A stretch of DNA of 40,128 bases from a bacterium (GCA_021845615.1 JAJZVP010000005.1:1-40128), one strand, 5' to 3'. Shown: positions 22,295 through 38,201, numbered from the stretch's first letter. Notes: generated by a model from the letters alone, not told the origin. Numbers and translations are program-made.

Positions 22295-23230
22295 ATGATG
22301 CGCGCTACCGTGGAAAAGCGCCTGCCGACCTATCTCGGCCTGCTGTACGTCGTGTTCGTTTGGGGTTTGAACACCGTACTCGTCAAAATCGCCGTCTCGC
22401 ACGTCGACGCACTCGCATTTACGGCGCTGCGTTTTTCAACGATGGCACCGCTCGCATTGCTGTGGGTTCGCCTCTCCGGCGCCCGCTTGAGCTTCGAACG
22501 TCGCGATTGGCTGCTCTTGCTCGCAAGCGGAGCGTGTGGATTCGGCATCTATCAATACTTTTGGGTCATCGGCCTCGCCCACACGACGGCATTTGCATCG
22601 TCGCTGCTCGGAAGCAGCACGCCGATCTTTACCATGATCTATCTCGTCGCCCTCGGATGGGAGCGCGTGCGCAGCACCCGGTGGATCGGCGCTGGCATCG
22701 CCCTGCTCGGCATCGCGGTCTTCGAAGGCGCCTTCGCCGGACACGCAACCTTCCGCATCGGCGACGCACTCACGCTGCTCGCGGCGATGACCTTCGCCGG
22801 CTTCAACGTCATCAGCGCGCGCTTGGCTCCGCGCTATCATCCCGTCGCGCTCCTCGCCGCCACGTTACTCATCGGAACGGCGATGATTTTACCGGCCGGT
22901 ATTCCCGCACTCGTCGCCGACCCTCCCACCCTCTGGCCGCCAGTGGTCTGGGAGGTCTTTGCGTTCGCGGTCGTCTTTCCAATCGTCCTCACCTATCCGG
23001 TCTGGAGTACGGGGATCGCGCGGATCGGCGCGGCGCGCGTCGCGCTCTTTAGTTTCCTCGTCCCCATCGTTTCCGGAGCGCTCTCGATTCCGATGCTGCA
23101 CGCGCACTTCCAACCCCACCAACTGCTCGGCGCGGCGATCTCGCTCGTCGGGCTCGCCGTCGCCACTCTGCTCGGGCATCTCTCCGTTGCGGAGGCTTGG
23201 GCGCAGCGAGCCGGAGATATCGAGCATTAG
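22295..23230 (+). CDS. EamA-family (DMT superfamily) transporter
   Basis: 311 residues with ten predicted transmembrane helices in two EamA repeats: first around LGLLYVVFVWGLNTVLVKIA to AGIALLGIAVFEGAF, second around ALTLLAAMTFAGFNVISARL to LLGAAISLVGLAVATLLG. Members export amino acids, nucleosides and other metabolites. It heads a plus-strand run with a DUF3311 gene 18 bp downstream, a sodium:solute symporter and a Rid protein. Its link to the aromatic pathway is contextual only. Confidence 0.9.
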   Translation: MMRATVEKRLPTYLGLLYVVFVWGLNTVLVKIAVSHVDALAFTALRFSTMAPLALLWVRLSGARLSFERRDWLLLLASGACGFGIYQYFWVIGLAHTTAFASSLLGSSTPIFTMIYLVALGWERVRSTRWIGAGIALLGIAVFEGAFAGHATFRIGDALTLLAAMTFAGFNVISARLAPRYHPVALLAATLLIGTAMILPAGIPALVADPPTLWPPVVWEVFAFAVVFPIVLTYPVWSTGIARIGAARVALFSFLVPIVSGALSIPMLHAHFQPHQLLGAAISLVGLAVATLLGHLSVAEAWAQRAGDIEH

Positions 23231-23248
23231 CGCGAAGGCGCCGCCCTG

Positions 23249-23440
23249 ATGGCTCGCCGCGCATGGTATTGGCTCCTCGCGTTACCGTTCATCGCCTTGC
23301 TGGACGTTCCGCTCTACGATCGGATCGATCCGCGCTGGAACGGAATTCCATTTTTCTACTGGTACCAACTCGCGTGGGTCGTGCTGACCGCCGCGCTGCT
23401 CGGCATCGTCTATCTCGCAACGCGCGAGCGCGCCCGATGA
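23249..23440 (+). CDS. DUF3311 family small membrane protein
   Basis: 63 residues with two transmembrane helices and the DUF3311 pattern: LLALPFIALLDVPLYDRIDP, then GIPFFYWYQLAWVVLTAALL. Genes of this family are commonly paired with sodium:solute symporters, and here the stop overlaps the symporter ATG (ATGA). It is probably an accessory subunit, comparable in arrangement, not homology, to YjcH-ActP. A second copy of the same pair lies at 36514-38201. Confidence 0.88.
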   Translation: MARRAWYWLLALPFIALLDVPLYDRIDPRWNGIPFFYWYQLAWVVLTAALLGIVYLATRERAR

Positions 23441-24909
23441 GCGTCACCGCTTCGGTCTTCGTCGCGCTCGTGCTCGTCGCCAGCGCGCTCGGATTCACCG
23501 CCGCGCGACGCAACGGCGGCGACCTGCGCGCCCTCAATGAATGGGCGCTCGGGGGGCGCCGCTTCGGCACCATTCTCTCCTGGTTTCTCCTCGGCGGCGA
23601 TCTCTATACCGCCTACACCTTCATCGCGCTCCCGGCGCTCGTCTACGGCGTCGGCGCCCTCGGTTTTTTCGCCGTCCCCTACGCGACGATCGCCTATCCC
23701 ATCGTCTTTCTTCTCCTCGCGCGTTTTTGGAGCATCGCTCACGAACGCGGATACATGACCGCCGGCGATTTCGTCCGCGGCCGCTATCGTAGCCGTTCGC
23801 TCGAACTCGCAATCGCCGCGACCGGCGTCCTCGCCGCGCTCCCGTATATCGCGCTGCAGATCGTCGGTATGAAAGCCGTCCTCGCCCAACTCGGTGGTAT
23901 CTTCGCCATCGGCGGCGGTGCGATGCCGCTCGCCGTCGCCTTTACGTTACTCGCGGCGTACACCTATATCGGCGGGCTGCGCGCGCCGGCCACGATCGCG
24001 GTCTTCAAAGACATCCTGATCTATCTCACGATCGCCGCCGCCATCGTCGTCATCCCGCACGCACTCGGCGGATGGCACGCCATTTTCACCGCCGCCGATC
24101 GCGCGCTGGCGAGCCCGCTGCACCCGTTCCCGCTTCTCGTCGCACCGCAGATGCAGTTTGCCTACGCGACCCTCGCGCTCGGCTCGGCGTTCTCGCTCTT
24201 TCTGTACCCACACGCCATTACGTCGTTGCTCTCCGCTCGCAGCGCCGATGTCGTACGGCGCAACGCCGCGCTCCTACCGCTCTATTCGATCCTGCTCGGC
24301 ATCATCGCACTGCTCGGTTTCGCCGCCCTCGCCGCCGGCATCCACGCGCCTCCGAACGAAATCGTGCCGATTCTCTTCGCACGATTCTTTCCACCCTGGT
24401 TTGCCGGGCTCGCCGACGCCACGATCGTGATCGGCGCGCTCGTTCCAGCCTCGATTATGGCGCTCGGCGCGGCCAATCTCTTCCTCCGCAACGTCGTTTC
24501 GCCGCTCTCGGGGCGCGCACCGAGCCGCGACGCGGGGAGCACGAAATGGTTGACGCTCGCGTTTTGCGCGCTCTCCTTGATTCTGGTACTCTTCATGAAT
24601 GTAAAATTCGCCATCTACTTTCAACTGCTCGGCGGAGCGTGGGTGCTTCAAACCGCGCCTGCAATATTTTTCGGTCTCGGCGAACGCTCGCTGCCCGCGC
24701 GGGCGTTGCTTGCGGGCTGGCTCGCCGGCATGATCGCGGCAACCTCCTTCGCGCTCGTCGACGGCTTCTCGCCGAACATCGCGCTGCACGTCGGCTCGTG
24801 GACGCTGGTCGGATTTATCGCGATCTACGCGGTGGCGATCAATCTCGGAGTCGCGCTCGTCGCCGCCGCGCTCCTGCGCGTTCGGTCGCCGCAGGGTGAG
24901 ATCGCATGA
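23437..24909 (+). CDS. Sodium:solute symporter (SSS/SLC5 family), copy 1
   Basis: 490 residues from the ATG at 23437, which overlaps the DUF3311 stop. About thirteen transmembrane segments; the SSS signatures include NEWALGGRRFGTILSWFLLG, YMTAGDFVRGRYRSR and ALPYIALQIVGM. Residues of the Na+ site region follow in VPASIMALGAANLFLRNVV. SSS carriers of this branch import carboxylates such as acetate, pyruvate or aromatic acids. Given the operon with a Rid protein and the aryl-CoA genes next door, an aromatic acid is a plausible substrate; this is inference. Confidence 0.9.
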   Translation: MSVTASVFVALVLVASALGFTAARRNGGDLRALNEWALGGRRFGTILSWFLLGGDLYTAYTFIALPALVYGVGALGFFAVPYATIAYPIVFLLLARFWSIAHERGYMTAGDFVRGRYRSRSLELAIAATGVLAALPYIALQIVGMKAVLAQLGGIFAIGGGAMPLAVAFTLLAAYTYIGGLRAPATIAVFKDILIYLTIAAAIVVIPHALGGWHAIFTAADRALASPLHPFPLLVAPQMQFAYATLALGSAFSLFLYPHAITSLLSARSADVVRRNAALLPLYSILLGIIALLGFAALAAGIHAPPNEIVPILFARFFPPWFAGLADATIVIGALVPASIMALGAANLFLRNVVSPLSGRAPSRDAGSTKWLTLAFCALSLILVLFMNVKFAIYFQLLGGAWVLQTAPAIFFGLGERSLPARALLAGWLAGMIAATSFALVDGFSPNIALHVGSWTLVGFIAIYAVAINLGVALVAAALLRVRSPQGEIA

Positions 24910-25310
24910 GCGAACGGATCGAACCCGCCGGATGGGCGCCGCCGAGCGGCTATGCAAACGGGATGATCGCGTCAGGACGCGTCCTCGCAATCGCCGGGCA
25001 GGTCGGCTGGGACGCACGGCAGCATCTCGTCTCCGCGGATTTCCTCGCGCAGGCCGCCCAAGCGCTGCGCAACGTCGCCGACGTACTGCGTACCGCCGGC
25101 GGAGATCCCGAACATCTCGTGCGGATGACCTGGTACGTGCTCGATGCTGCGGAGTACCGCGCGAACGCGAAGGCGCTCGGCGCCGCCTATCGGGAGATTA
25201 TCGGCAGTCATTATCCGGCGATGACGTTGATCGTCGTTGCGGGACTGCTCGAAGAAGGCGCGCGAGTGGAAATCGAGGCGACGGCGCTCCTACCGGCGCT
25301 CGACCCGTAG
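24906..25310 (+). CDS. Rid (YjgF/YER057c/UK114) family protein
   Basis: 134 residues, Rid fold: GMIASGRVLAIAGQVGWD, then QAAQALRNVADVLRTAGG and the final ARVEIEATALLPALDP. RidA-type enzymes hydrolyse imines/enamines, with a conserved Arg in the motif PARxxxxV binding the substrate carboxylate. Here the equivalent segment reads YPAMTLIVVAGL, so the Arg is Met; it belongs to a non-RidA subgroup. The ATG overlaps the symporter stop. Context suggests a role on an amino-containing ring intermediate of the pathway encoded downstream. Confidence 0.88.
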   Translation: MSERIEPAGWAPPSGYANGMIASGRVLAIAGQVGWDARQHLVSADFLAQAAQALRNVADVLRTAGGDPEHLVRMTWYVLDAAEYRANAKALGAAYREIIGSHYPAMTLIVVAGLLEEGARVEIEATALLPALDP

Positions 25311-25334
25311 TACCCGAATGCTCCAGGCCGGCTC

Positions 25335-26957
25335 CTAGGGACGCTCGCGAAGTTTGTAGCGCTGCAGCTTTCCCGTCGCCGTGCGCGGAAGCGCGTCGAT
25401 GATTTCAATCTCACGCGGCGCCTTAAATGGAGCGATCGTCGCCTTGCAGTGCTCGATAAGTTCGGCGACGCACGCGGCGTCACCGACGCGCGGGGCGCGG
25501 AGGACGACGTAGGCCTTTACCATCGTCGTATGGTGCGCCGGATCGGGTTTTCCGACGACGGCGCATTCGAGAACGTCGGCGTGAAGCAAGAGCGCCTGCT
25601 CGACCTCCGGTCCCGATACGTTGAACCCCGCCGAGACGATCATATCGTCGGCGCGAGCGACGTACCTGAAGTAGCCCTTGCTATCGACCGAATACGCATC
25701 TCCGGGATAGTTCCATCCGTCTCGAACGTAGGTGCGCTGCCGGTCGTCGTCGAGATAGCGACAGCCGGTCGGCCCGTAGACCGCGAGTCGACCGACCGTA
25801 CCGATGGGCACCTCGTTGCCGAGCTCGTCGTGAATCTGTGCGACGTACCCCGGCACGACGCGCCCGGTCGATCCCGCCCGCGCCTCCTCGGCTGGTGACG
25901 CGATAAAAATATGCAGCATCTCGGTGCTGCCGATCCCGTCGACGATCGAGATTCCGGTCGCGGCACGCCACGCTTCCCAAACGACGCCCGGAAGGGTCTC
26001 GCCGGCCGAGACGCAGATCCGCAGGCTCGACCAGTCGCGCTTCGCCGCATGCGACGTCAACGCACGATACGCGATCGGTGCGGTAAAGAGCACGCTGATC
26101 CGATGGCGTTCGATCGCCGCTGCGAGTTCTTCGGTCCCCGCGCGTTCCAGAAGCACGGTCGATGCTCCGATAGCGAACGGAAACAAGAGTATGCCGCCGA
26201 GGCCGTAGGTAAATGCCAGCGGCGGAGATCCGCTAAAACGATCCTCCGGGTCGGCCTTGAGGACCTCCGCACCGAAGCTATCGCAGGTGGCGAGGAGATC
26301 GCGATGAACGTGCATCGCCGCTTTGGGAAGCCCCGTCGTTCCGGAAGTAAACGCGATCATCGCGACGTCCTCCGCGGCGGTCGCAACGTTCTGAAAAGTC
26401 GCCGATTTTTCCGCAACGCGTCGTTCGAGGGATTCATCGCCGCCGTCGCCCCAATAGCATATCGTCATCTCGGGCCGGGATGCGCGTGCGCGTTCGAGCT
26501 CCTCCGCGAGGCGAGCGTCGCAGAGCGCGATCGCAACGCGAGCGCGTTCGCTCACGGTCTGAAGTTCCTGCGTGCGATAGAGGGGCATCGTCGTCACGAC
26601 GATGCCTCCGGCCTTGAGAACCGCGAACCAACACGCGAGCAACGTCGGCGTATTCGCCGAGCGCAGTAAAACGCGATTTCCGGTGACGAGCGCGAAATCT
26701 TCGACGAGAACGCGAGCGATCCGATTCGCCCACTCCATCATCTCCCGATAGCTGTAGGTCGTGCCATCTTCGGCAATCGCACAGGGACGATCTCCGCGCC
26801 CCTCTTCAACATGACGATCGAGAAAATACCACGCGGCATTGATCCGGTCGGGATAGCGCATGCGCGGCAGCGTGAAGGCGAAGCGCGGAAGCGCGGCCTC
26901 GGGGGGAAGCCGGTCGCGAGCGAAGGTGTCGAGATGCGCGCTCTCAACCACGCGCAT
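25335..26957 (-). CDS. Aryl-CoA ligase, 2-aminobenzoate/benzoate-CoA ligase-like
   Basis: 540 residues, ANL superfamily adenylate-forming enzyme. Motifs: [19 protein letters not shown] (P-loop), [14 protein letters not shown] (A5), [22 protein letters not shown] (A7-A8) and the catalytic Lys in [13 protein letters not shown]. The N-terminal [20 protein letters not shown] resembles benzoate- and 2-aminobenzoate-CoA ligases. It would activate the aromatic acid with ATP and CoA before the flavin monooxygenase acts. The start overlaps the upstream dehydrogenase by 14 bp; a GTG at 26951 is an alternative. Substrate by context, not proven. Confidence 0.88.
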
Positions 26958-28101
26958 CCTCCTTCATCAGCGACCGAGCGATCACGGTTTGCTGCACCTC
27001 GCTCGCTCCTTCGTAAATGCGCAGCGAGCGAACGTCGCGATAAAGCCGTTCGACGATCTCTCCCCGCGTCACGCCGCGCCCGCCGAAGAGTTGCACCGCC
27101 CGGTCGCAGACGCGACCGGCGGCTTCGGTCGCATACCATTTTGCCATCGCCGCCTCCCGAGTGACCCGTTCCGCTCCCGCGTCTTTCGTATAAGCCGCTC
27201 GATAGACCAACAGCGCCGCGGCATCGATCTCGGTCGCCATCTCGGCGATCGCTCCAGAAACGAGTTGAAGATCTGCGAGCCGCGCTCCATATATTTCACG
27301 CTGCATGACGTGTGCCCGGGATTCGTCGAAGGCGCGTCGCGCGAAACCGAGCGCCGCCGCGCCGACGGTGGTCCGAAAGAGATCGAGCGTCGCCATTGCA
27401 ATCCGAAAGCCGTCCCCTTCGTTTCCGAGCAGCGCATCGGCGCCGACCCTCACGCCCGAGAAACGCAGCGCCCCTAAGGGATGCGGAGAGATCGTTTGAA
27501 TCGACCGCGTTTGCACGATGCCCGGTCGTCCGGCCTCGACGATAAAGGCACTCAACCCCTTCGTCGGATGATCGCCCGTGCGGGCGAAGAGCACGTAAAC
27601 ATCGGCGATACCGGCGTTGCTGATCCAGCATTTCTCGCCGGTAATGTCGTACCCATCGCCGCTTCGGTGCGCGCGCGTCGTCAGCGCCGCAACGTCGGAA
27701 CCCGCACGCTCCTCCGAGAGTGCGAACGCCGCGAGCGAGGTTCCGGCGAAGATGCCGGGCAAGACGCGCTCGCGCTGCGCCGCCGTTCCAAAAAGCGAGA
27801 TCGCTCCGCTACCCAGCCCTTGCATCGCGAATGCAAAATCGGCGAGCGCGCTCCGATAGGCGAGTTGTTCTCGCGAAAGCGCGACCGCGCGAATATCGAG
27901 GCGCGCGCAGGGCGCGAGCCAACCGCCCGCTCCGAGCTCTCGCGCCCACGAGCGCGTCCGCGCGGCGACAGAGGCATCGTCGATCCCATCGTCATTAAAA
28001 CGCTCGCGCGGCACGGCGTCGAGCCACCGCTCGAATGCCTCGGCCTGCTCGCGATGCGCGCGATCGAAAAACGGCCAGGCGAGGGTCGCGTCGAGTCGCA
28101 T
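26944..28101 (-). CDS. Acyl-CoA dehydrogenase
   Basis: 385 residues from the ATG at 28099-28101, which shares one base with the crotonase stop (TGATG). FAD binding and fold motifs: [58 protein letters not shown]. Catalytic Glu is in [13 protein letters not shown]. It probably oxidises a ring-derived or ring-opened CoA thioester of the aminobenzoate pathway and reduces ETF. Differs clearly from the glutaryl-CoA dehydrogenase at 7684. Part of the run lipoprotein-crotonase-dehydrogenase-ligase. Confidence 0.92.
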
Positions 28102-28898
28102 CAATTACCCTCAAACTGCGGCCGGCGTTTCGCGATGAAGGCCTCGTACGCGCGGCGGAAATCGCCGCTCGCCATCAACGCGGCTTGAACGCGCGCTTCC
28201 ATCGCGATTTCCTCGCCGAGCTCCATTCCCGGTGCCGCCTCAAGCATCGCCTTGGTGACCTCGTGTGCGCGCGTCGGTCCGTTCGCAATCTCCCGCGCGC
28301 ACGATCGCGCTTCTTCATCGAGAAGTTCCGGCGTGCAGAGCCGGTTGAAGAACCCCCACGAGAGCGCCTCCTCGCCGGAGAGTTCTCGCCCGGTGTAGAG
28401 CAACTCGCTCGCCCGGCCCAGGCCGAGAATGCGCGGTAGCATCGCGCAGGCGCCCATATCCGCCCCGGAGAGCCCGACGCGCACGAAGAGAAACGCGACG
28501 CGAGCCCGGGCGGTGCCCAGACGAAGATCGGAGGCCATCGCGAGGATCGCCCCAGCTCCGGCGCAGACGCCGTCGACGGCCGCAATGATCGGCTGCGGAC
28601 AGGCGCGCATCGCCGCCACGACGGCACCGGTCATCTCGGTAAACCGCAGTCGCTCGTCGGGAGCCATCGCTACCAGCGGCCCGATAATCTCCCGCACGTC
28701 ACCGCCGGAACAAAAATTCCCGCCCGCGCCGCGCAGCAACACCGCGCGCACGGCGCGATCGGTCTTCAACGCTTGAAAGCCGTCGCGTAAGGCCGCGTAG
28801 ATCTCAAACGTCAGCGGATTTTTTCGCTCGGGACGCGCGAGCGTCAGCGTCATGACGCCGTCGTCCGTCGATACCTGCAGGCCCTCCGCCTCGATCAC
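28101..28898 (-). CDS. Crotonase (enoyl-CoA hydratase/isomerase) family protein
   Basis: 265 residues from the GTG at 28896-28898, which overlaps the lipoprotein stop. Oxyanion-hole segments [11 protein letters not shown] and [17 protein letters not shown] are present. Both catalytic glutamates of enoyl-CoA hydratase are absent: where the family has GCELAMxCD this has GAILAMASD, and the PEI of the next motif is FVRV. An Asp in [16 protein letters not shown] aligns with the Asp of dienoyl-CoA isomerase. It may be an isomerase, ring hydrolase or decarboxylase instead of a hydratase. The track frame to 29414 is a shadow. Confidence 0.9.
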
Positions 28899-29326
28899 TG
28901 CATCACCAACGGGAGATCTTGCTCGCTTCGCAGCCCCGCACTGTTTCGAGCGATGACGCGGAGCGCGTACGAGCGCGTAAAAATCGGCGGCCAATCGAAG
29001 AGTGCGAGCTTGAATGCAAACCTGCCGTACGCCGTTCGCGGAACGTCGATCGAGAACAGATTCGTGCGTACCTCCACCGACGCGGTATTCGTCGAGGTCA
29101 CGAAGCTTCCGCTCCACGTCGTACCGCGGCGGAGATCGAGGCTCGAGAAGTGCATGGCGAGCATTCTCGGGGGCGCGTCGTTGCCGAGGATCTCGGGGCT
29201 CGGCATCGCAACGGGTGATACGCCGACCGAGACGTCCCGCGGAAGCGGCGGCACGTGCGAGACGCAACCGACGAGTGCGAGAAGCGCTATCGATGCGAGC
29301 GACCGGCGCAACGGAACGGCGAGCAT
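28895..29326 (-). CDS. Predicted lipoprotein, unknown
   Basis: 143 residues with a lipoprotein signal: [21 protein letters not shown], lipobox LVGC at residues 18-21. The mature protein is small, Pro-rich at first ([10 protein letters not shown]), and probably beta-rich ([32 protein letters not shown]). The last part resembles an Ig-like strand pair. I do not recognise a family. It overlaps the crotonase GTG by 4 bp, so it is the first gene of the lower aminobenzoate operon, which is an odd place for a lipoprotein. Confidence 0.75.
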
Positions 29327-29403
29327 ACCCTTTCATCGGCGCGTGCGGCGGTGGATTCCTGCACGTCGGAGGGACGCATGCCTCGCTTGCATAAGGTCGC
29401 GCC

Positions 29404-30450
29404 ATGGAAGGCAACGCACCACGTAGCCTCTCGCTCGATTATGCGATGGCTTTTTCGTGCCTCACGATCGTCACCGGCTTCTTCATCGATGCGTGGGCGC
29501 ACGGGCACGTGCCGATCGAAACCTTCCTCACGCCCTACCACGGCTTTATCTATCTTGGGATGCTCGCAATTCTCAGCACGCTCGGCGCCCAGTATCTGCG
29601 CGGACGGCGGCTCGGATATCGCGGCCTGCACGCCTTTCCGAAGCCCTATCATCTCGCCTTGATCGGCATTCCGATCTTCCTCATCGCCGCTCCCAGCGAC
29701 GTGGCGTGGCATGCGATCTTCGGGCTCGAAGAGGGCGTCGACGCGCTCTTGAGCCCAACGCACCAAATGATGGGACTGGCAATTTTTTTTCTCGCCTCGG
29801 CACCGATCCGCAGCGCGCTCGCTGCACGCGATAGCGAGGCTTCGCCGAAGGGATTGCGCGAACAGTTGCCTATCGCCATCGCACTGGCAGCCTGGCTGGG
29901 ATTGATCCACTTCGGTACCGCTTACGCCTTTATTCCCGCCGCCGATCGCGGCAACGCTCCGCCGCCGATCTCGCCGCTCCAGGCAACGTATTTTACGGCG
30001 ATCGCTCTGAGCTACTACAAAAGCTCGCTCGGCGTCCTCGTGGTGATCTTTCAATCGGCGCTCTTTGCCGGGTTCGCCCTCTTCCTGAGCGCGCAATTTC
30101 GGAGCGCGTTCGGCATGTTGACGGTCGTTCTGGTTCTCGGCAACACGCTCAACGCGATTCCCTTTACGAATGCGACGCCGTTGCTCGCGACGACCGTGCT
30201 CTGCTCGCTCGTCGCCGGGCTCCTCGGCGATGCTTGGGTCGCTCGATTCGATCCCCATCCTTCGCGCCCGGCGCCGTACCGTGCGCTCGCCATTATCGTT
30301 CCGCTTTCGTATTTTGCGTGCTACTTGATCGTGACGGATCTCACCTCGGGTCTCTGGTGGGACGTGCATTTTCGGTTCGGCGTCTTGCTTTGGTGCGCGG
30401 CGGTGGGAATGGGGCTCTCCCTTCTCACGATGAGCGCGCGCCGCGCGTGA
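29404..30450 (+). CDS. Multi-pass membrane protein, unknown
   Basis: 348 residues with about nine or ten transmembrane helices, e.g. [54 protein letters not shown] and [17 protein letters not shown]. Histidines recur in membrane-adjacent positions ([36 protein letters not shown]), a pattern that might bind a metal or heme. No family recognised. It overlaps the GT39-like gene (GTGA), and the two are a plus-strand module inserted between the two halves of the aminobenzoate genes. Confidence 0.75.
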
Positions 30451-31964
30451 TTCCCGAACTCATCGCGATCCTCACCGCACTCCTACATCTCGCGTTTGCG
30501 GGAAACTACGGCTACTTTCGGGACGAGCTCTACTTTCTTGCCTGCGCGCACCATCTCGCGTGGGGCTATCCCGATCAGCCGCCATTGGTCGCACTCGTTG
30601 CCCTGCTCTCCGCGCCGTTCCACTGGAACCTCTTCGTCCTGCGCGCACCCGTCGCTATCGCTGCCGCTCTCAACGTCCTCGTCGTCGCATCGCTCGCCCG
30701 CGAGGTCGGCGGCAAACACTTTGCGCGCGTCCTCGCCGCGATTGCGGTAGCGGCGCTTCCCGCCTATCTCACGCTCGGAAGCGTGCTCACGACGACCTCG
30801 TTCGAGCCGCTCACGTGGTCGCTCGTCGCGTTGCTGACGCTGCGCGCACTCCGTACCCCGACACCAGCGGCCGGGGCGCTCCTCGGTGCGGCGATCGCCT
30901 TCGGGACGTACGGCAAATATTCGATGCTGCTCTGGGTGGTCGCACTCGCGCTTGGCATCGCGTGTTCGCCACAACGAACGCTGCTGAGGTCGCCGTGCGC
31001 GCTTGCAGCCTTCGCCGTCGCGGCACTCGCGCTCGCTCCGAATCTACTCTGGCAGGCAACGCACGGTTGGCCGTTTGCCGCGGTCATTCACGCCGATTTC
31101 CTCGATCGGCACTCGTTCAATAACGGCTGGCAACTCGAATATCGCGGCTTTCTCGCAAACACGATTTCGTTCTCGCTCGAACAGATCGCATTTACGAATC
31201 CCGTGCTCGCTCCGCTCTGGATCCTGGGCATCGTTACGGCCCTGCGCACTCCCGCTCTCCGTTTTATCGGCATTGCCGCACTGGGAACCCTCGCCGTTGC
31301 CATAGCGCTCGAAGCGAAGGGCTACTACGTCATCGGTGCGTACGGGAGCCTCCTCGCAGTGGGGGCGACCGCGTTGGAACGTGCGAGCGAGTCGCTGCGT
31401 GCGGCTCGCGGCATCGCTATCGCCGCCGTTCTCGCGACCGCGACGCTCGCTCTCCCGCTCGCCGCGCCCGTTCTACCCGTCGATACCTTGATCGCGTACT
31501 CCAGGGCGCTCCACCTCACGGGGAATCACGGGACGGCGGCGCGCCTGATCCAACCGCTGTTCGCCGAAGAGTTCGGCTGGCAACGGCTCGCCGAAGATGT
31601 CGCGCGTGCCTACGAACGCATACCGACATCGCGGCGAGCGCGCACGGCGATCTATGCCGATACCTATGCCGATGCCGGCGCGATCGACCGCTACGGCCCG
31701 GCACTGCATCTACCGCCGGCGATTTCAAGCCAGAACGCCTATTGGCTCTGGGGGATGCGCGGATACGATATGCGCAGCGTTCTCGCAATAGGAGCGAGCC
31801 GCCAGCGCAGGCTCTTCGCCGCCTATGCGACCTGCACGCGGGTCGGCAGCACCTTCGATCGCTATCGCGCGGTCGTCGAAGGCCCGACACCGATATTTTT
31901 CTGCACGCACCCACGCATGCCGCGCGCGGCGCTCTGGCGCTCGCTCCGTTGGTATGGAGCCTAG
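30447..31964 (+). CDS. Glycosyltransferase family 39-like membrane protein
   Basis: 505 residues from the GTG at 30447, which overlaps the upstream stop; the longer track frame is spurious. The N-terminus has the PMT/ArnT-like motif YGYFRDELYFLACAHHLAWGYPDQPPL with the acidic Asp-Glu and then about ten helices with a large C-terminal soluble domain of ~150 residues (ARAYERIPTSRRARTAIYAD). Family members transfer mannose or aminoarabinose from polyprenyl-phosphate sugars. Substrate unknown. Confidence 0.88.
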   Translation: MIPELIAILTALLHLAFAGNYGYFRDELYFLACAHHLAWGYPDQPPLVALVALLSAPFHWNLFVLRAPVAIAAALNVLVVASLAREVGGKHFARVLAAIAVAALPAYLTLGSVLTTTSFEPLTWSLVALLTLRALRTPTPAAGALLGAAIAFGTYGKYSMLLWVVALALGIACSPQRTLLRSPCALAAFAVAALALAPNLLWQATHGWPFAAVIHADFLDRHSFNNGWQLEYRGFLANTISFSLEQIAFTNPVLAPLWILGIVTALRTPALRFIGIAALGTLAVAIALEAKGYYVIGAYGSLLAVGATALERASESLRAARGIAIAAVLATATLALPLAAPVLPVDTLIAYSRALHLTGNHGTAARLIQPLFAEEFGWQRLAEDVARAYERIPTSRRARTAIYADTYADAGAIDRYGPALHLPPAISSQNAYWLWGMRGYDMRSVLAIGASRQRRLFAAYATCTRVGSTFDRYRAVVEGPTPIFFCTHPRMPRAALWRSLRWYGA

Positions 31965-31978
31965 ACGAGCCCCACGCT

Positions 31979-32704
31979 CTAGGCGAGGACCAGCTCTTCT
32001 CCGTTCCGATCCCCGGTTAAGAACTCCATCGCGCCGCGAACGACCGTCGCAACGTCGATAATCCGGCCGCTCGGGTTCATCGCCGCGAGTTGCGCGCGTG
32101 CCTCCTCCGGGCTCGCGCCCGTGTGGCCGACGATTTGGTCGACTGCCTGTTGCATCATATCGGTCTCGGTATATCCCGGACAGATGGCGTCGATGCAGAC
32201 CCCCGAGCCGGCAAATTCGGCGGCGAGCGCGCGTGTCAACCCGATGACGCCGTGTTTGCTCGCGCAGTAGGCGGCGATATACGGCGCTCCGTAGAGCCCG
32301 GCGATCGATGCAATGTTGACGATGCGCCCGAAGCCGTTGGCGCGCATCTCGCCGATAACGGCGCGCGAACAGAGAAACGTTCCAGTAAGATTCGTGGCGA
32401 TGATCTGCTGCCAAAGCTCGTCGCTCGTGCGCCCCAATGGCGCCGATGCGGCGATCCCGGCATTATTGACGAGCATTGCGATCGTTCCGTGCCGCTCGCG
32501 CGCCATGGCGAAGGCTCGCTCCACGCTCGCCGCGTCGCCGACATCGCAAGCGATCGCATCGATACCCGGCTCGCTCGCACCGGCGCGGCTCAGTCCGCTC
32601 ACCGCAGCGCCGGCTTCGGCGCAGGCACGAGCGATCGCGAGCCCGATGCCCCGCGACGCACCGGTTACGACGACGTGCCGTCCCCGAAGATCGAATCCGT
32701 TCAT
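31979..32704 (-). CDS. Short-chain dehydrogenase/reductase
   Basis: 241 residues from the ATG at 32702-32704, overlapping the monooxygenase stop (ATGA); the 391-residue track frame is wrong. SDR motifs: [17 protein letters not shown] (NAD(P) binding), NNAGIA, catalytic Ser in [15 protein letters not shown] (Tyr and Lys), and the CPGYTETDM motif. The catalytic tetrad Asn-Ser-Tyr-Lys is intact. Likely oxidises or reduces a hydroxyl intermediate of the ring-reduced CoA thioester; it is the natural candidate for the 3-hydroxyacyl-type step of the pathway. Confidence 0.92.
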
Positions 32705-34977
32705 GATGGTTGCTCCAGTCTGCGCGCGATCGCGCGTTCGAGTTGTTCTTTTCCGGGGAGGTAGGGCTTCGGCCATCCCGGATCGCGATAGCCGAGATCG
32801 GCCGCCGCGTGAAGGGTCCAGTAGGGATCGGCGAGATGCGGTCGCCCGAGCGCGACGAGATCGGCGCGCCCCCCCGCGATCAGCGCGTTGACCTGTTCGT
32901 GATCGGTGATGTTTCCAACCGCGAGCGTCGCGATTTCGACCTCGTTGCGAATCGCATCGGAGAACGGCGCCTGAAACATGCGCCCGAAGCGCGGGCGGCT
33001 CTGCGGATCGGTCTGGCCGGTCGAAACATCGATGAGATCGGCACCCGCGGCCTTGAACGCGCGCGCGATCTCGATGGCGTCGCGCTCGTCGTTCCCGCCC
33101 TCGCACCAATCGGTCGCCGATATTCGCACCGAGATCGGGCGCTCCGCGGGCCAACGCGCGCGCATCGCACGAAAGACCTCGAGTGGAAAGCGCATTCGAT
33201 TTTCCAGCGGTCCGCCATAACGATCGTTGCGCCGATTCCGGAGCGGCGTGAGGAAGGACGAGAGCAGGTAGCCGTGCGCGCAGTGGAGCTCGAGCATATC
33301 GAAGCCGGCCTCGATCGCCATCTCGACCGCCGCGACAAACTCATCGCGAATCGCGCGCATCCCCGCCTCGTCGAGAGCGAGTGGAACCTGGTTTCCGGGA
33401 GCGTACGGAATCGCCGACGGCCCGACGACCGGCCAGTTCCCCTCCTCGAGCGGCTCGTCCATCCCCTCCCACATCAGTTTCGTCGATCCCTTCGGCCCCG
33501 AATGCCCGAGTTGGAGCGCGATCTTTGCCCGCGTACTCCGGTGCACGAAATCGACGATGCGCTTCCACGCGCCAACGTGCTCCGCTGCATACATGCCGGT
33601 GCATCCCGGCGTGATACGCCCCTGCGCGCTCACGCAGGTCATCTCGGTAACCACGAGCCCGGCACCGCCGAGCGCACGACTTCCATAGTGGACGAGATGG
33701 AAATCGTTGGGGGTGCCGTCGACGGCGCTGTAGGTATCCATCGGCGAGAGGACGACGCGATTTCGAAGGGTGAGTCCGCGCAGCGAAAACGGCGAGAACA
33801 TCGGCGGAATCGGAGGCCCGCCGAAATGAGCTTCCACGCTTTCGACGTACGCGGCGTCGCGCGCGCGAAGATTTTCGTGCCCTATCCGTTGGCTCCGCGT
33901 CAGCAGACTGTAGGCGAAGGTTTCGGGATCGAGCCGCGCGTAGCGCTCGACATTTTCGAACCATCGCGTCGAATTTCTCGCGGCGTTCTGTAATTTGAGC
34001 ACTTCGAGTTTCCGCTCGCTCTCGTACCCAGCAAAAGCTTCGTCGAGACGATCGCAACGTTCGAAGGACTCGACGAGCGCGATGGCATCTTCCATCGCCA
34101 TCTTCGTTCCCGAGCCGACCGAAAAATGCGCCGTGTGCGCGGCGTCACCGACGAGCACCAGGTTTCCGTCGTACCAGCGCTCGTTTTCCACGAAGGTAAA
34201 ATCGATCCACGCGCTGCCGCGGCGGTGGCCGGGGTTTACTTGCAGTCGGTGGCCGCCCAATTCCTCGGCAAAGAGCGCCTCGCAGAACGCCACCGTCGCG
34301 GCCGCATCGGCGCGGTCGAGGCCGTGCGCGCGCCAGGTCTCTTCGCGGCACTCGACGATGAAGGTGCTCGTGCGATCGTCGAAGCGGTAGGCGTGAACGG
34401 CGAACCAGCCGTGTTCGCTGCGTTTGAAAAAAAACGTGAACGCATCGAGCGGAATCGTGCTTCCCAGCCAGACGAATTTGCAACGTCCGCCCGAGACGGT
34501 CGGCCGGAACACGGAGGCGTAACGATTGCGGGTGGACGAATGGACGCCGTCGGCGGCGATAACGATATCGCAGCCGGCGCGAAAAACATCGAGATCCTCA
34601 ACGCGTTCGCGATAACGCATATCGACGCCGAGCGCGAGAGCGCGCTCGTGGAGAATCGCGAGCAGATGTTTGCGCGAGATGCCCGCGAAGCCGTGCCCGC
34701 TCGAACGAACGCTCGCGCCGCGAACGTGAATCTCGATATCGTCCCAATGCACGAAACTGCGCTCGATTCGCGCGAAGCTCTCCGGATCGGCGACCGCGAG
34801 CCCATCGAGCGTTGCGTCGGAGAAGACGACTCCCCAGCCGAAGGTATCACCGAACGGATTGCGTTCGACGAGTTCGACGCGCCATTCGGGAAAGCGCGCC
34901 TTCGCAAGCAGTGCCGCGTAGAGCCCGCCGGGGCCGCCTCCGAGCACGCGCAGGTGCAGCGAGCCGTTCGGGTTCAT
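32701..34977 (-). CDS. Fused flavin monooxygenase/Old-Yellow-Enzyme: 2-aminobenzoyl-CoA monooxygenase/reductase type
   Basis: 758 residues from the ATG at 34975-34977 (the track frame to 35394 is too long). N-terminal ~385 residues: class A flavoprotein monooxygenase with the FAD-binding GGGPGG motif, IAADGVHS (DG motif) and [22 protein letters not shown], resembling salicylyl-CoA 5-hydroxylase. C-terminal ~360 residues: OYE domain with [29 protein letters not shown] and RISATDW. This fusion is the hallmark of 2-aminobenzoyl-CoA monooxygenase/reductase, which hydroxylates at C5 and reduces the ring. Both ends overlap neighbours by 4 bp, so the operon is tight. Confidence 0.93.
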
Positions 34978-36488
34978 GCGAGGACGCGGTCGGCGAGCAC
35001 CGCCTGCGCGGCGCGGCGCCCCGGAAAGCCGCTCACGCAGCCGCCCGGATGCGTCCCCGAACCGCAGAGATAGAGCCCGCGCACCGGCGCGCGCACGCCG
35101 AAGCGCGCTTCGAAGATCTGCCCGGGGAGCAACTCGCCGTGAAAGATGTGTCCGCCGACGAGCCCGAACCGCTCTTCGAGATCGGGAGCGGCCATCAACT
35201 GTTGCGCCTCGATCGCGTTGGGAATATTCGGCGCGTAGCGCGCGAGCATGGCGACGATCTTCTTTGCGGCCGTATCGCGGCGCGCAGCACTCCAACCATC
35301 GGGGCGATCGTAGGGAAAATACTGCGCGAAGATCGAGAGAATATGCTTTCCCTGTGGAGCGAGGCTGGGATCGGTCGGCGTCTGCATGAAACACTCGAGC
35401 ATCGGCTCCTCGCTCTCACCGAGGCGCCGTGCATCGTCGTGCGCCCGCTGCAGAAACGAGAGATCGGGCGCGACGTGGATCGTCGCACGATGATGGGATT
35501 GCGGCGTCGTCCCCGGGCGCGCGGTAAAGTTCGGCAGCTCGCCGAGAGCGAGATTGAGTTTGAGCGCCGGCCCGACGCTCTGCCAGGCGGCGAGCCGACG
35601 TTTGCTCGCATCGTCGAGATGTTCCTCGCCGAGAAGCTCGCGGTAGGTCGTGATCGGGTGCGCGTTCGAGAGCACCGCGCACGCGCGAAACTCGCGTCCG
35701 TCTGCGGTAACGACGCCGACGACGGAGTCGCCGTCGCGCAGCAATCCCGTGACGTTCGCTTCGGTGAGCGCATGAGCACCGCGCGCCTGCGCCGCCGAGA
35801 GCAGTGCTTGCGAGATCGCGCCCATTCCGCCGCGCACGAAGCCCCACGCGCCTTGCACGCCGAAGACGCGCCCAGCGTAATGATGGGCGAGTACGTATCC
35901 GGTACCGGCGTCGAACGGCCCCCGGTAGGTGCCGATCAGCCCATCGGTCGCCAACGTCGCTTGGAGCACCGGCGTGCGCACGTGTCGCTCCACGAGCTCG
36001 GCGGCACTCCCCTCCAATGCAGCGCGCACGTGTGCATCGAAGCGATCGAAGCGCGGCTCCATATCCGCGAAGCTTTCGAAGAGCGCCGAACCGAGCGCCG
36101 TTGCCTCGCGTTCGAAGGCGGCAAAGCCTGCGTTATCGGCGGAATCGAAGCGTGCGATCTCCGCGGCGTTTTTCTCGTCGTCGGCGCCGAGCAAGAGCGA
36201 GCGCCCATCGAGCAGCGGTGTAAAGGACGCGGGATCCTTGCGGTAGGCATCGTAGCCGTGCGCGCGCAGATCGAGCCGATCGATCAGCCAGGGGTCGAGC
36301 AGGCTGCAGACGTAGCTCGCCGCCGAGATCGTGTACCCCGGCCAGCGGTCGCGCTCGCTCACCGTCGCACCGCCGATACGATCGGAGCGCTCGAGGATGA
36401 GGACCCGCAGGCCGGCTTCGGCGAGCAGTGCGGCGGCGGCCAAGCCGTTATGCCCGCTCCCAATCACGAGCGCGTCGTAGGTTTCCAT
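34974..36488 (-). CDS. PYROXD2/phytoene-desaturase-like FAD oxidoreductase
   Basis: 504 residues from the ATG at 36486-36488 ([20 protein letters not shown]); the earlier track start is unsupported. Dinucleotide-binding Rossmann motif [27 protein letters not shown] at the N-terminus, and at the C-terminus the FAD motif [28 protein letters not shown]2-type proteins are related to carotenoid and amine oxidases. Its position as first gene of the operon suggests it acts on a ring or amino intermediate, but the reaction is unknown. It overlaps the monooxygenase gene by 4 bp (ATGA). Confidence 0.9.
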
Positions 36489-36513
36489 ACCCGTTCTATA
36501 CAAGCCAGGGGCG

Positions 36514-36717
36514 ATGAACTCTTGGCGGCTTCGCACACTTCGCATCGCCATCGCTCTGCTACCGGTGCTCGCCTTCGCCGTCGGCACCCCGTTGCTCAAC
36601 CATGTCGAGCCCCGCATCGTGGGGCTGCCGCTCAACCTCGCCTGGGTCATTCTCTGGATTCTGCTAACGCCGCTCTGCCTGATGGCGATCGAGCGGCTGC
36701 GGAACGTGAAAACCTAA
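36514..36717 (+). CDS. DUF3311 family small membrane protein, copy 2
   Basis: 67 residues with two transmembrane helices (IAIALLPVLAFAVGTPLLNH and LNLAWVILWILLTPLCLMAI). Same family as the gene at 23249, though diverged: both keep an LLP/LLA...P helix, the short loop, and a Pro-Leu/Phe-containing second helix. It lies 25 bp from the divergent PYROXD2-like start. Its stop shares bases with the symporter ATG (TAATG), so the two are coupled. An AGGGG motif precedes the ATG. It is likely a symporter accessory subunit. Confidence 0.82.
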   Translation: MNSWRLRTLRIAIALLPVLAFAVGTPLLNHVEPRIVGLPLNLAWVILWILLTPLCLMAIERLRNVKT

Positions 36718-38201
36718 TGCTTGCATCGGCGCTCGCGGGGCGGATCGCGCTCTCCATCGTCGCCGTGGTGATCGCCGGGACGATCGCTTTCGCGTTGCTC
36801 AATCTCAAACGCGGTCGCGTCGACCCCACCGAATACGCGATCGGCGGGCGAAGTTTCGGCACCATCTTCCTGTGGGTGCTGCTCGCGGGTGAGATCTACA
36901 CCGCCTTCACCTTTCTCGGTGCCGCAGGCTGGGTCTATCTTCACGGCGCGGCGGCGTATTATATTCCGGCGTACGGCGCGATCGGCTACCTCGTGGGCTA
37001 CGCGCTGCTCCCACGGATTCGGCGCCTCGGCGCCGAGCGCGGCCTCGTCACGGCGCCCGACCTGCTGGCAAATTATTATCGCAGCCCACGGCTCGGCGTG
37101 CTCGCGGCGATCCTCTACGTGATCCTCGCGTTGCCGTACGTGACGCTCCAACTCAGCGGACTGCAGATCGTACTCTCGAGCGCCGGATACGGCTGGCTCG
37201 ATGGAGCGATCGGCGCGGCGGTCGCCTTTACGGCGATCGCGCTCTTTACGTTCACCGCCGGGTTGCGCGGCACGGCGTGGGCGAGTTTGGTAAAGGACGG
37301 CTTGGTGCTCGCGGTCGTGCTCTTCGCGGGCATCGCCCTGCCGATCCACTTCTTCGGCTCGCTCGGCGGAATGTTCGCGCAACTCCAACGCACGAATGCC
37401 GCCCTGCTCACCCTTCCGACCGGCGATGCGCCGTTCGGGCAAGTGTGGTTCATAACGACGGTGTTGTTTACCGGCATCGGGTTTTATATGGGCCCGCATT
37501 CGATCGCCGCAACGTTCTCCGCGCGCAGCGACAACACGCTGCGGCGGAATGCCATGCTTTTGCCGCTCTACTCGATCGTGTTGATCGTCATCTTCTTCGC
37601 CGGCTATGCGGCGTTATTGCTGGTACCGGGGCTGCACGGGCACGCCGCCGACCAATCGTTTTTGCTCGTCATCGCGCGCTACTATCCGCCCTGGGTGATG
37701 GGCTTCGTCGCCGGCGCCGGAGCGCTCGCGGCGCTGGTGCCATCCTCGGCACTCATTTTAGCCTCGGCGGCGATCGTGGTGCGCAACATCGTGCGCCCGG
37801 CCTTCCCCGGCCGCATCGACGAGCGACACGAAACGTTGGCGATGCGCGTCGCGGTGATCGCGATCTCCGCAGCGGCGCTGCTTGCATGGTGGCTCGCGCC
37901 CGAGACGCTCGGATCGCTCTTGCTGGTGTACTACAGCGGCATCACGCAATTTTTGCCCGGGGTGGTCGGAGCGGCATTCGGTCTACGGCTGCGCGGCATC
38001 GCGGTGACGCTCGGCCTTGCGGCGGGCGTCGTGACTGCGGCGTTGCTGACCTACGTGCTCGCCCATCTCGGCTTCAATCCCGGGTTCGGCGGGCTCATCG
38101 CGAACCTGCTCGTCGTCGCACTCGTCGAGTGGCTCGCCCCAAAAACGAAGACGAGCCCGCCGATGGCGAACTCGTCTTTCGAAGCTCCTACGACCGACTA
38201 G
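36717..38201 (+). CDS. Sodium:solute symporter (SSS/SLC5 family), copy 2
   Basis: 494 residues from the ATG at 36717. The track frame from 34812 is an in-frame extension through the reverse strand of other genes. About thirteen helices; signatures TEYAIGGRSFGTIFLWVLLAGE, GLVTAPDLLANYYRSPR, ILALPYVTLQLSGLQIVL and VPSSALILASAAIVVRNIV. It is paralogous to copy 1 but with clear divergence. It stands beside the start of the aminobenzoyl-CoA operon, the best candidate importer. Its TAG overlaps the opposing zinc-ribbon TAG in one CTAG. Confidence 0.9.
   Translation: MLASALAGRIALSIVAVVIAGTIAFALLNLKRGRVDPTEYAIGGRSFGTIFLWVLLAGEIYTAFTFLGAAGWVYLHGAAAYYIPAYGAIGYLVGYALLPRIRRLGAERGLVTAPDLLANYYRSPRLGVLAAILYVILALPYVTLQLSGLQIVLSSAGYGWLDGAIGAAVAFTAIALFTFTAGLRGTAWASLVKDGLVLAVVLFAGIALPIHFFGSLGGMFAQLQRTNAALLTLPTGDAPFGQVWFITTVLFTGIGFYMGPHSIAATFSARSDNTLRRNAMLLPLYSIVLIVIFFAGYAALLLVPGLHGHAADQSFLLVIARYYPPWVMGFVAGAGALAALVPSSALILASAAIVVRNIVRPAFPGRIDERHETLAMRVAVIAISAAALLAWWLAPETLGSLLLVYYSGITQFLPGVVGAAFGLRLRGIAVTLGLAAGVVTAALLTYVLAHLGFNPGFGGLIANLLVVALVEWLAPKTKTSPPMANSSFEAPTTD

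Follow-up and report, generated by a model that had tools for sequence, protein, structure and literature searches.

A probable aerobic, CoA-dependent route for 2-aminobenzoate degradation in Ca. Eremiobacterota

Anthranilate (2-aminobenzoate), which can be made by cells from tryptophan, is degraded by an aerobic, CoA-dependent pathway of the type found in Azoarcus evansii. The clusters of this organism are said to have been described by Schuhle et al. in 2001 as holding a ligase, a monooxygenase/reductase fusion, three beta-oxidation-type enzymes, a translation-inhibitor-like (Rid) protein, a MarR protein and an ABC transporter. Two aerobic 2-aminobenzoate gene clusters and a ligase are recorded for Azoarcus (Aromatoleum) evansii (PMC8388817), and in Arthrobacter sp. 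Rue61a the genes of plasmid pAL1 have been linked to anthranilate by assayed ligases and CoA-metabolite analysis (PMC3534580). Related operons, annotated as salicylyl-CoA 5-hydroxylase, occur on plasmids of Paracoccus, Deinococcus, Comamonas, Aminobacter and Sinorhizobium, where the canonical order is fused gene, SDR, in some cases MarR, ECH, acyl-CoA dehydrogenase (ACAD) and in some cases thioesterase, usually with RidA and ligase genes nearby and often with 3-hydroxyacyl-CoA dehydrogenase (3HCDH) and pcaF thiolase genes or Liv-type ABC transporters. SdgC of Streptomyces WA46, which shares its database name with these proteins, belongs to a route with related CoA-ester aromatic hydroxylation chemistry that leads to gentisate.

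The locus considered here lies in a window of 40,128 nucleotides, contig C31 of a MAG of Ca. Eremiobacterota (2.22 Mb, 81% complete). Among named genomes, those closest to it are two 'bacterium' entries, MAGs at 96 and 95% identity, followed by MAGs of Candidatus Eremiobacterota at 89%. On sequence evidence, we put the probability that this locus is an Eremiobacterota version of the A. evansii-type aerobic, CoA-dependent 2-aminobenzoate pathway at roughly 85%.

Gene content and order

Gene boundaries were set by start-codon context and gene overlaps, and the reading frames of all named proteins are intact. The pathway gene set spans 23437-38201 and comprises two tightly overlapping minus-strand units, a plus-strand pair and a second, separate symporter gene. 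The first minus-strand unit, running from 29326 to 25335, encodes a small lipoprotein-like protein (28895-29326; no Pfam or NCBIfam match) whose gene overlaps the crotonase gene start, a PaaG-like crotonase-family protein (28101-28898), an ACAD (26944-28101; Acyl-CoA_dh domains) whose gene keeps its place close to the fused gene across many phyla, and an aryl-CoA ligase (25335-26957). The second, from 36488 to 31979, encodes a PYROXD2/phytoene-desaturase-like flavoprotein (34974-36488; Amino_oxidase and CrtI-type matches), the fused FAD monooxygenase/Old-Yellow-Enzyme (OYE) reductase of 758 aa (32701-34977) and, directly downstream with a 4-bp overlap, an SDR-family oxidoreductase (31979-32704; adh_short). 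A long open reading frame starting at 35394 was rejected as the fused gene, the true gene being that at 32701-34977 on the minus strand. Convergent with the first unit is the plus-strand pair (23437-25310), made up of an MctP-like SSS-family symporter (23437-24909; NF046076, 566.4 bits, cut-off 625) and a Rid-family protein (24906-25310; PF01042) whose genes overlap by 4 bp, and a second MctP-like SSS-family symporter gene (36717-38201, plus strand; NF046076, 215.5 bits, cut-off 625; TIGR00813) diverges from the second unit. An EamA transporter gene (22295-23230), the lipoprotein-like gene and, between the two minus-strand units, genes for a membrane protein (29404-30450) and a PMT-type glycosyltransferase (30447-31964) have no evident role.

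All proteins named in a preliminary description of this DNA (ligase, ACAD, crotonase, SDR, fusion, PYROXD2-like flavoprotein, Rid and two symporters) are present, and Pfam and NCBIfam searches assigned each named enzyme to its family; for the symporters, MctP/SSS models are the best matches, at scores below the cut-offs.

In common with the A. evansii abm clusters, the locus has a ligase, here recognised by phylogeny, a fusion of FAD monooxygenase and OYE in one chain, three beta-oxidation-type enzymes (ACAD, crotonase and SDR) and a linked Rid protein. Unlike those clusters, it has SSS symporters and is without MarR and the ABC-transporter protein, both accessory components on which the chemistry does not depend; its genes are split between two minus-strand operons and a plus-strand symporter-Rid unit, and a PYROXD2-like gene is added. 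The proposal that the island might be an undescribed variant proved overstated, since its enzymes are the standard ones and the differences are confined to transporters, regulator and gene order. The pAL1 locus shares with the window a homologous ligase, the fused monooxygenase/reductase and a Rid protein of the same kind, and differs from it in that cupin, FAH hydrolase and thioesterase genes adjoin in place of ECH and ACAD. The plasmid operons listed above resemble the window in their series of fused gene, SDR, ECH and ACAD, mostly with RidA and ligase nearby, and differ variously in MarR, thioesterase, Liv-type transporters and linked 3HCDH and pcaF thiolase genes.

Conservation of the operon and its flavoprotein neighbour

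In a survey of gene neighbourhoods, the fused-protein, SDR, crotonase, ACAD, Rid and ligase genes form a conserved operon in many phyla, Proteobacteria, Deinococcota, Myxococcota, Gemmatimonadota and Eremiobacterota among them. A chance grouping is excluded, because these genes are clustered not just in close kin but in phyla far removed from the host. In a second neighbourhood type, cupin and FAH genes replace ECH and ACAD; the two types are interspersed on the fused-protein tree, with at least four changes, and it follows that the downstream genes are swapped while the fused enzyme stays.

Within the class of the host, the fused gene was found in 65 of 117 genomes. In a sample of 250 genomes around G117, none had two copies of it. 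Eremiobacterota loci follow two layouts, whose fused proteins form separate clades on the tree. In layout E1, that of the window, the two symporter genes and the Rid gene lie on the opposite strand and MarR is missing, and homologues of the Paracoccus MarR and LivK references were found neither near the window cluster nor at other E1 loci; in layout E2, Rid lies within the operon and MarR is present at 13 of 16 loci. At the 29 E1 loci, a homologue of the first symporter (at least 50% identity) is near the cluster in 13, a homologue of the second stands beside the fused gene in 18, and the lipoprotein-like gene is upstream of the crotonase gene in 17. Wherever the SDR gene was found, it lay on the fused-gene strand (27/27 E1 loci and 12/12 E2 loci).

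The PYROXD2-like flavoprotein, for which the AlphaFold model was uninformative (mean pLDDT 39), raises the question of whether it contributes a dedicated extra step and thereby defines a distinct pathway variant, a reading that we regard as rather improbable. In the window, its gene and the fused gene share 4 bp; the two are neighbours at every same-genus locus with data and at five loci from three other genera, and three additional genomes have distant paralogues close to the fused gene; all of this speaks for a dedicated function. Set against it is the distribution across the 117 class genomes, in which homologues (at least 58% identity) occur in 34 of the 65 fused-gene genomes and in 19 of the 52 others (Fisher p = 0.10), leaving 31 of the 65 with no homologue. 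In most genomes the gene lies at another place or is missing, and it was not found at E2 loci. On this class-wide distribution, an obligate pathway enzyme is rejected; the gene is described as a lineage-specific neighbour whose role in the pathway is doubtful.

Substrate of the fused enzyme and of the ligase

The fused protein scores 1197.9 bits against NCBIfam NF006101 (cut-off 1078), with the Pfam domains FAD_binding_3 at residues 132-306 and OYE at 393-726. Across 68 diverse aligned members of the fused family, the FAD motifs GxGxxG, DG and GDAAH and the OYE active-site motif His-x-x-His-Gly-Tyr are conserved with few exceptions. In a tree built by a quick method from sequences that do not include A. 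evansii AbmA, it groups with fusions that neighbour ligase, ECH, ACAD, SDR and Rid genes, in keeping with the earlier suggestion of a 2-aminobenzoyl-CoA monooxygenase/reductase, the activity predicted here.

The ligase, an AMP-binding protein, finds its best HMM in the benzoate-CoA-ligase family (351.6 bits, just under the cut-off of 375.25), stays below the cut-off of TIGR02262, and has as its best PDB match the anthranilate-CoA ligase 4wv3 (283 bits), with the benzoate-CoA ligase 2v7b at 244 bits. In a tree built by a careful method, it falls in a clade of all linked ligases (support 98/96) that includes the pAL1 enzyme, to which it is about 49% identical and which has been assayed on anthranilate (PMC3534580); the benzoate-CoA ligases 2v7b and 4rm3 and the anthranilate-CoA ligase 4wv3 lie outside. 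It is thus predicted to be a 2-aminobenzoate-CoA ligase.

A possible internal source of anthranilate is encoded in the same genome. The host has a tryptophan 2,3-dioxygenase (TDO; 247.6 bits against TIGR03036, under the cut-off of that model), and its gene adjoins a kynureninase-like gene that is cut by the contig end, a pair found in all ten relatives examined. The full-length kynureninase-like protein of one relative has kynureninase 1qz9 as its best solved match (8.7e-33; next family 8.7e-17) and scores below the kynureninase family cut-off (80.4 versus 246.4 bits). With OYE-only matches left out of the presence lists, TDO occurs in 60 of the 65 class genomes with the fused gene as against 25 of the 52 without it (p = 8e-8; 117 genomes) and, by genus, in 25 of 26 as against 8 of 22 (p = 8e-6), both figures being uncorrected for kinship, genome size and completeness. 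Outside the class, kynU lies near the Aminobacter plasmid operon, and TDO and aminotransferase-V genes lie near the fused gene on a Rhodococcus plasmid. Several points count against the anthranilate reading: TDO is also present in genomes that lack the fused gene; the genomes are related, so that the association is not fully independent; the kynureninase-like protein stays below its family cut-off; the curated NCBI name of the fused family is salicylyl-CoA 5-hydroxylase; and some relatives of the fused gene adjoin cupin and FAH hydrolase genes, not beta-oxidation genes.

The 2-aminobenzoyl-CoA route put forward in the preliminary description is nevertheless supported and, as far as the trees reach, withstands the refuting condition set for it there, that of clustering with fusions of unrelated substrate. 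Support comes from the clustering of the fused protein, the ligase clade, the anthranilate-supplying genes and the failure to find a gentisate dioxygenase. There is a slim chance that the true substrate of this chemistry is, in place of anthranilate itself, a related aminoaryl acid such as a substituted anthranilate or a breakdown product of indole or quinoline. Fused-gene relatives beside indolepyruvate oxidoreductase, indole/styrene monooxygenase and quinaldine degradation genes would fit such a substrate, as would the identity of only about half between the window ligase and the assayed one, across which specificity may have shifted; the quinaldine route itself ends in anthranilate (PMC3534580), however, and the host's TDO and kynureninase-like genes also favour anthranilate.

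A route of the SdgC kind, in which the fused enzyme would turn salicylyl-CoA into gentisyl-CoA by hydroxylation and so feed a gentisate pathway, is very unlikely. NF006101, the best curated model, does carry the NCBI name bifunctional salicylyl-CoA 5-hydroxylase/oxidoreductase, and relatives, for example in Cupriavidus and Caballeronia, stand beside cupin and FAH-family hydrolase genes; the same automatic name is borne by the pAL1 fused protein, which is tied to anthranilate. Against this route, no gentisate 1,2-dioxygenase match (TIGR02272) was found in the host genome, at 81% completeness, or in nine same-genus relatives, no genome of the class that has the fused gene exceeds the cut-off, and the partial matches of nine such genomes in g37 fall short of it; no cupin was found at the Eremiobacterota loci scored for it; the ligase groups with an assayed anthranilate-CoA ligase; and plain hydroxylation would presumably need neither a reducing OYE domain nor Rid. 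With the dioxygenase not found, the salicylate/gentisate pathway is rejected. Box-type degradation of benzoyl-CoA through a benzoate-CoA ligase is likewise rejected, as the tree places benzoate-CoA ligases outside the linked-ligase clade.

Proposed route, deamination and ring opening

For 2-aminobenzoate as substrate, the symporters would take up anthranilate, or TDO and the kynureninase-like enzyme would make it from tryptophan (step 1, on homology and co-occurrence), and the ligase would convert it to 2-aminobenzoyl-CoA (step 2), the expected substrate of the fused enzyme (step 3), both by analogy with homologous, assayed systems. For the steps that follow, we infer that the Rid protein may hydrolyse an enamine to a dioxo thioester and ammonia (step 4), that the SDR, ACAD and PaaG-like crotonase would open and oxidise the ring (step 5), and that a thiolase and a 3HCDH encoded elsewhere in the genome would complete breakdown (step 6).

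The Rid protein departs from canonical RidA at a critical position. Its YPAM motif aligns with FPAR of human RidA, so that Met106 stands in place of the catalytic Arg (Arg105/107), which is essential in RidA and binds the substrate carboxylate (PMC4433059). The Rid protein of the preliminary description is present, but it lacks the residue on which the imine hydrolysis by RidA depends, and canonical RidA activity cannot be assumed. Met occupies this position in 109 of 110 Rid proteins linked to the fused gene, a set with many close kin (Paraburkholderia, Eremiobacterota), the sole exception being a haloarchaeon with Leu; the signature also occurs in Arthrobacter, including pAL1, Rhodococcus, Deinococcota and Proteobacteria, Alphaproteobacteria among them. 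Loss of the Arg is chemically sensible, because in the predicted thioester substrate no carboxylate is left free, and the Met-type Rid is proposed to be an enamine hydrolase for such a CoA thioester. The expected product of this deamination corresponds to the C7H8O4-CoA ester reported in anthranilate-grown Arthrobacter (PMC3534580).

The crotonase matches NF006107 best (402.4 bits, cut-off 330) and PaaG second among NCBIfam models. Aligned with the PaaG-like 3hrx, it shares Arg140 and Asp147, the latter in the region of the PaaG catalytic Asp and invariant in all 116 aligned rows of the linked set. Hydratases of the crotonase family use two Glu, and simple hydration is doubtful, since Arg140 stands at the first of these positions; isomerisation or opening of the ring is a plausible activity, judging from the alignment. 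A thiolase had been noted as missing from the window, and it is; the host genome has one elsewhere, on contig C37 with a 3HCDH gene and adjoining an aldehyde dehydrogenase gene; this thiolase and the pcaF-type enzyme from the Aminobacter operon share 56% identity. Taken together, it may be, and this is put forward as a tentative reading, that the Met-type Rid deaminates the CoA-thioester enamine, its Arg replaced by Met as there is no free carboxylate, and that the PaaG-like crotonase, in place of hydration at a double bond, opens the 2,5-dioxocyclohexanecarboxyl-CoA so formed.

If true, this pair of activities would add a new activity class to the Rid family and close the A. evansii pathway; in either case, the conserved enzymes with unusual active-site residues form a short list for the lower pathway steps that can be expressed and assayed. 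The comparison further suggests that 2-aminobenzoyl-CoA monooxygenase/reductase is the more likely activity for hundreds of proteins that now bear the name 'salicylyl-CoA 5-hydroxylase/oxidoreductase'. In a limited literature search, no paper was found joining Eremiobacterota with anthranilate or Vulcanimicrobiota with tryptophan. With this locus, a little-known way of degrading anthranilate aerobically through CoA esters would reach into a phylum that is uncultured. Over half of the class genomes sampled carry the key gene, and the statistical link between the fused gene and tryptophan breakdown suggests what these organisms may eat.

Genes in and between the operons

The two minus-strand operons (lipoprotein-like/crotonase/acyl-CoA dehydrogenase/ligase and PYROXD2-like/fused gene/SDR) include a short lipoprotein-like gene (window 28895-29326), which overlaps the crotonase start, is assigned to no known family and is kept at the same place in 17 of the 29 Eremiobacterota loci with the layout of the window. 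Inserted between the operons (window 29404-31964) are genes for a PMT-type glycosyltransferase and for a multi-pass membrane protein that matches no Pfam family; wider operon spacing in several relatives suggests that this insert is common to them.

Tryptophan dioxygenase and kynureninase-like genes

In Eremiobacterota, among them genomes that lack the fused gene, a tryptophan dioxygenase gene forms a conserved pair with a kynureninase-like gene (loci L230-L239 and L225:2-1499, the latter on host-genome contig G000:C140). Automatic annotation could miss the two proteins, since neither reaches its curated NCBIfam cut-off.

Clades and neighbourhoods of the fused protein

A haloarchaeal version of the cluster, on a Haladaptatus plasmid (L215), comprises the fused monooxygenase, a benzoate-CoA ligase family protein, acyl-CoA dehydrogenase, SDR, crotonase and a Rid protein with Leu at the RidA catalytic Arg position. 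On Cupriavidus and Caballeronia plasmids (L085, L217), the fused protein adjoins a long cupin, of gentisate-dioxygenase-like length, and an FAH-family hydrolase, with no ligase, crotonase-family or acyl-CoA dehydrogenase gene in these neighbourhoods; the enzyme family may here be represented by genuine salicylyl-CoA or 5-hydroxyanthranilate variants.

Within one class, the fused protein splits into two separate clades (L148-L160 with L177-L180 versus L141-L147 with L161-L176). The two differ in gene layout and in their transport or regulation genes, and they may have arisen by transfer or old duplication.
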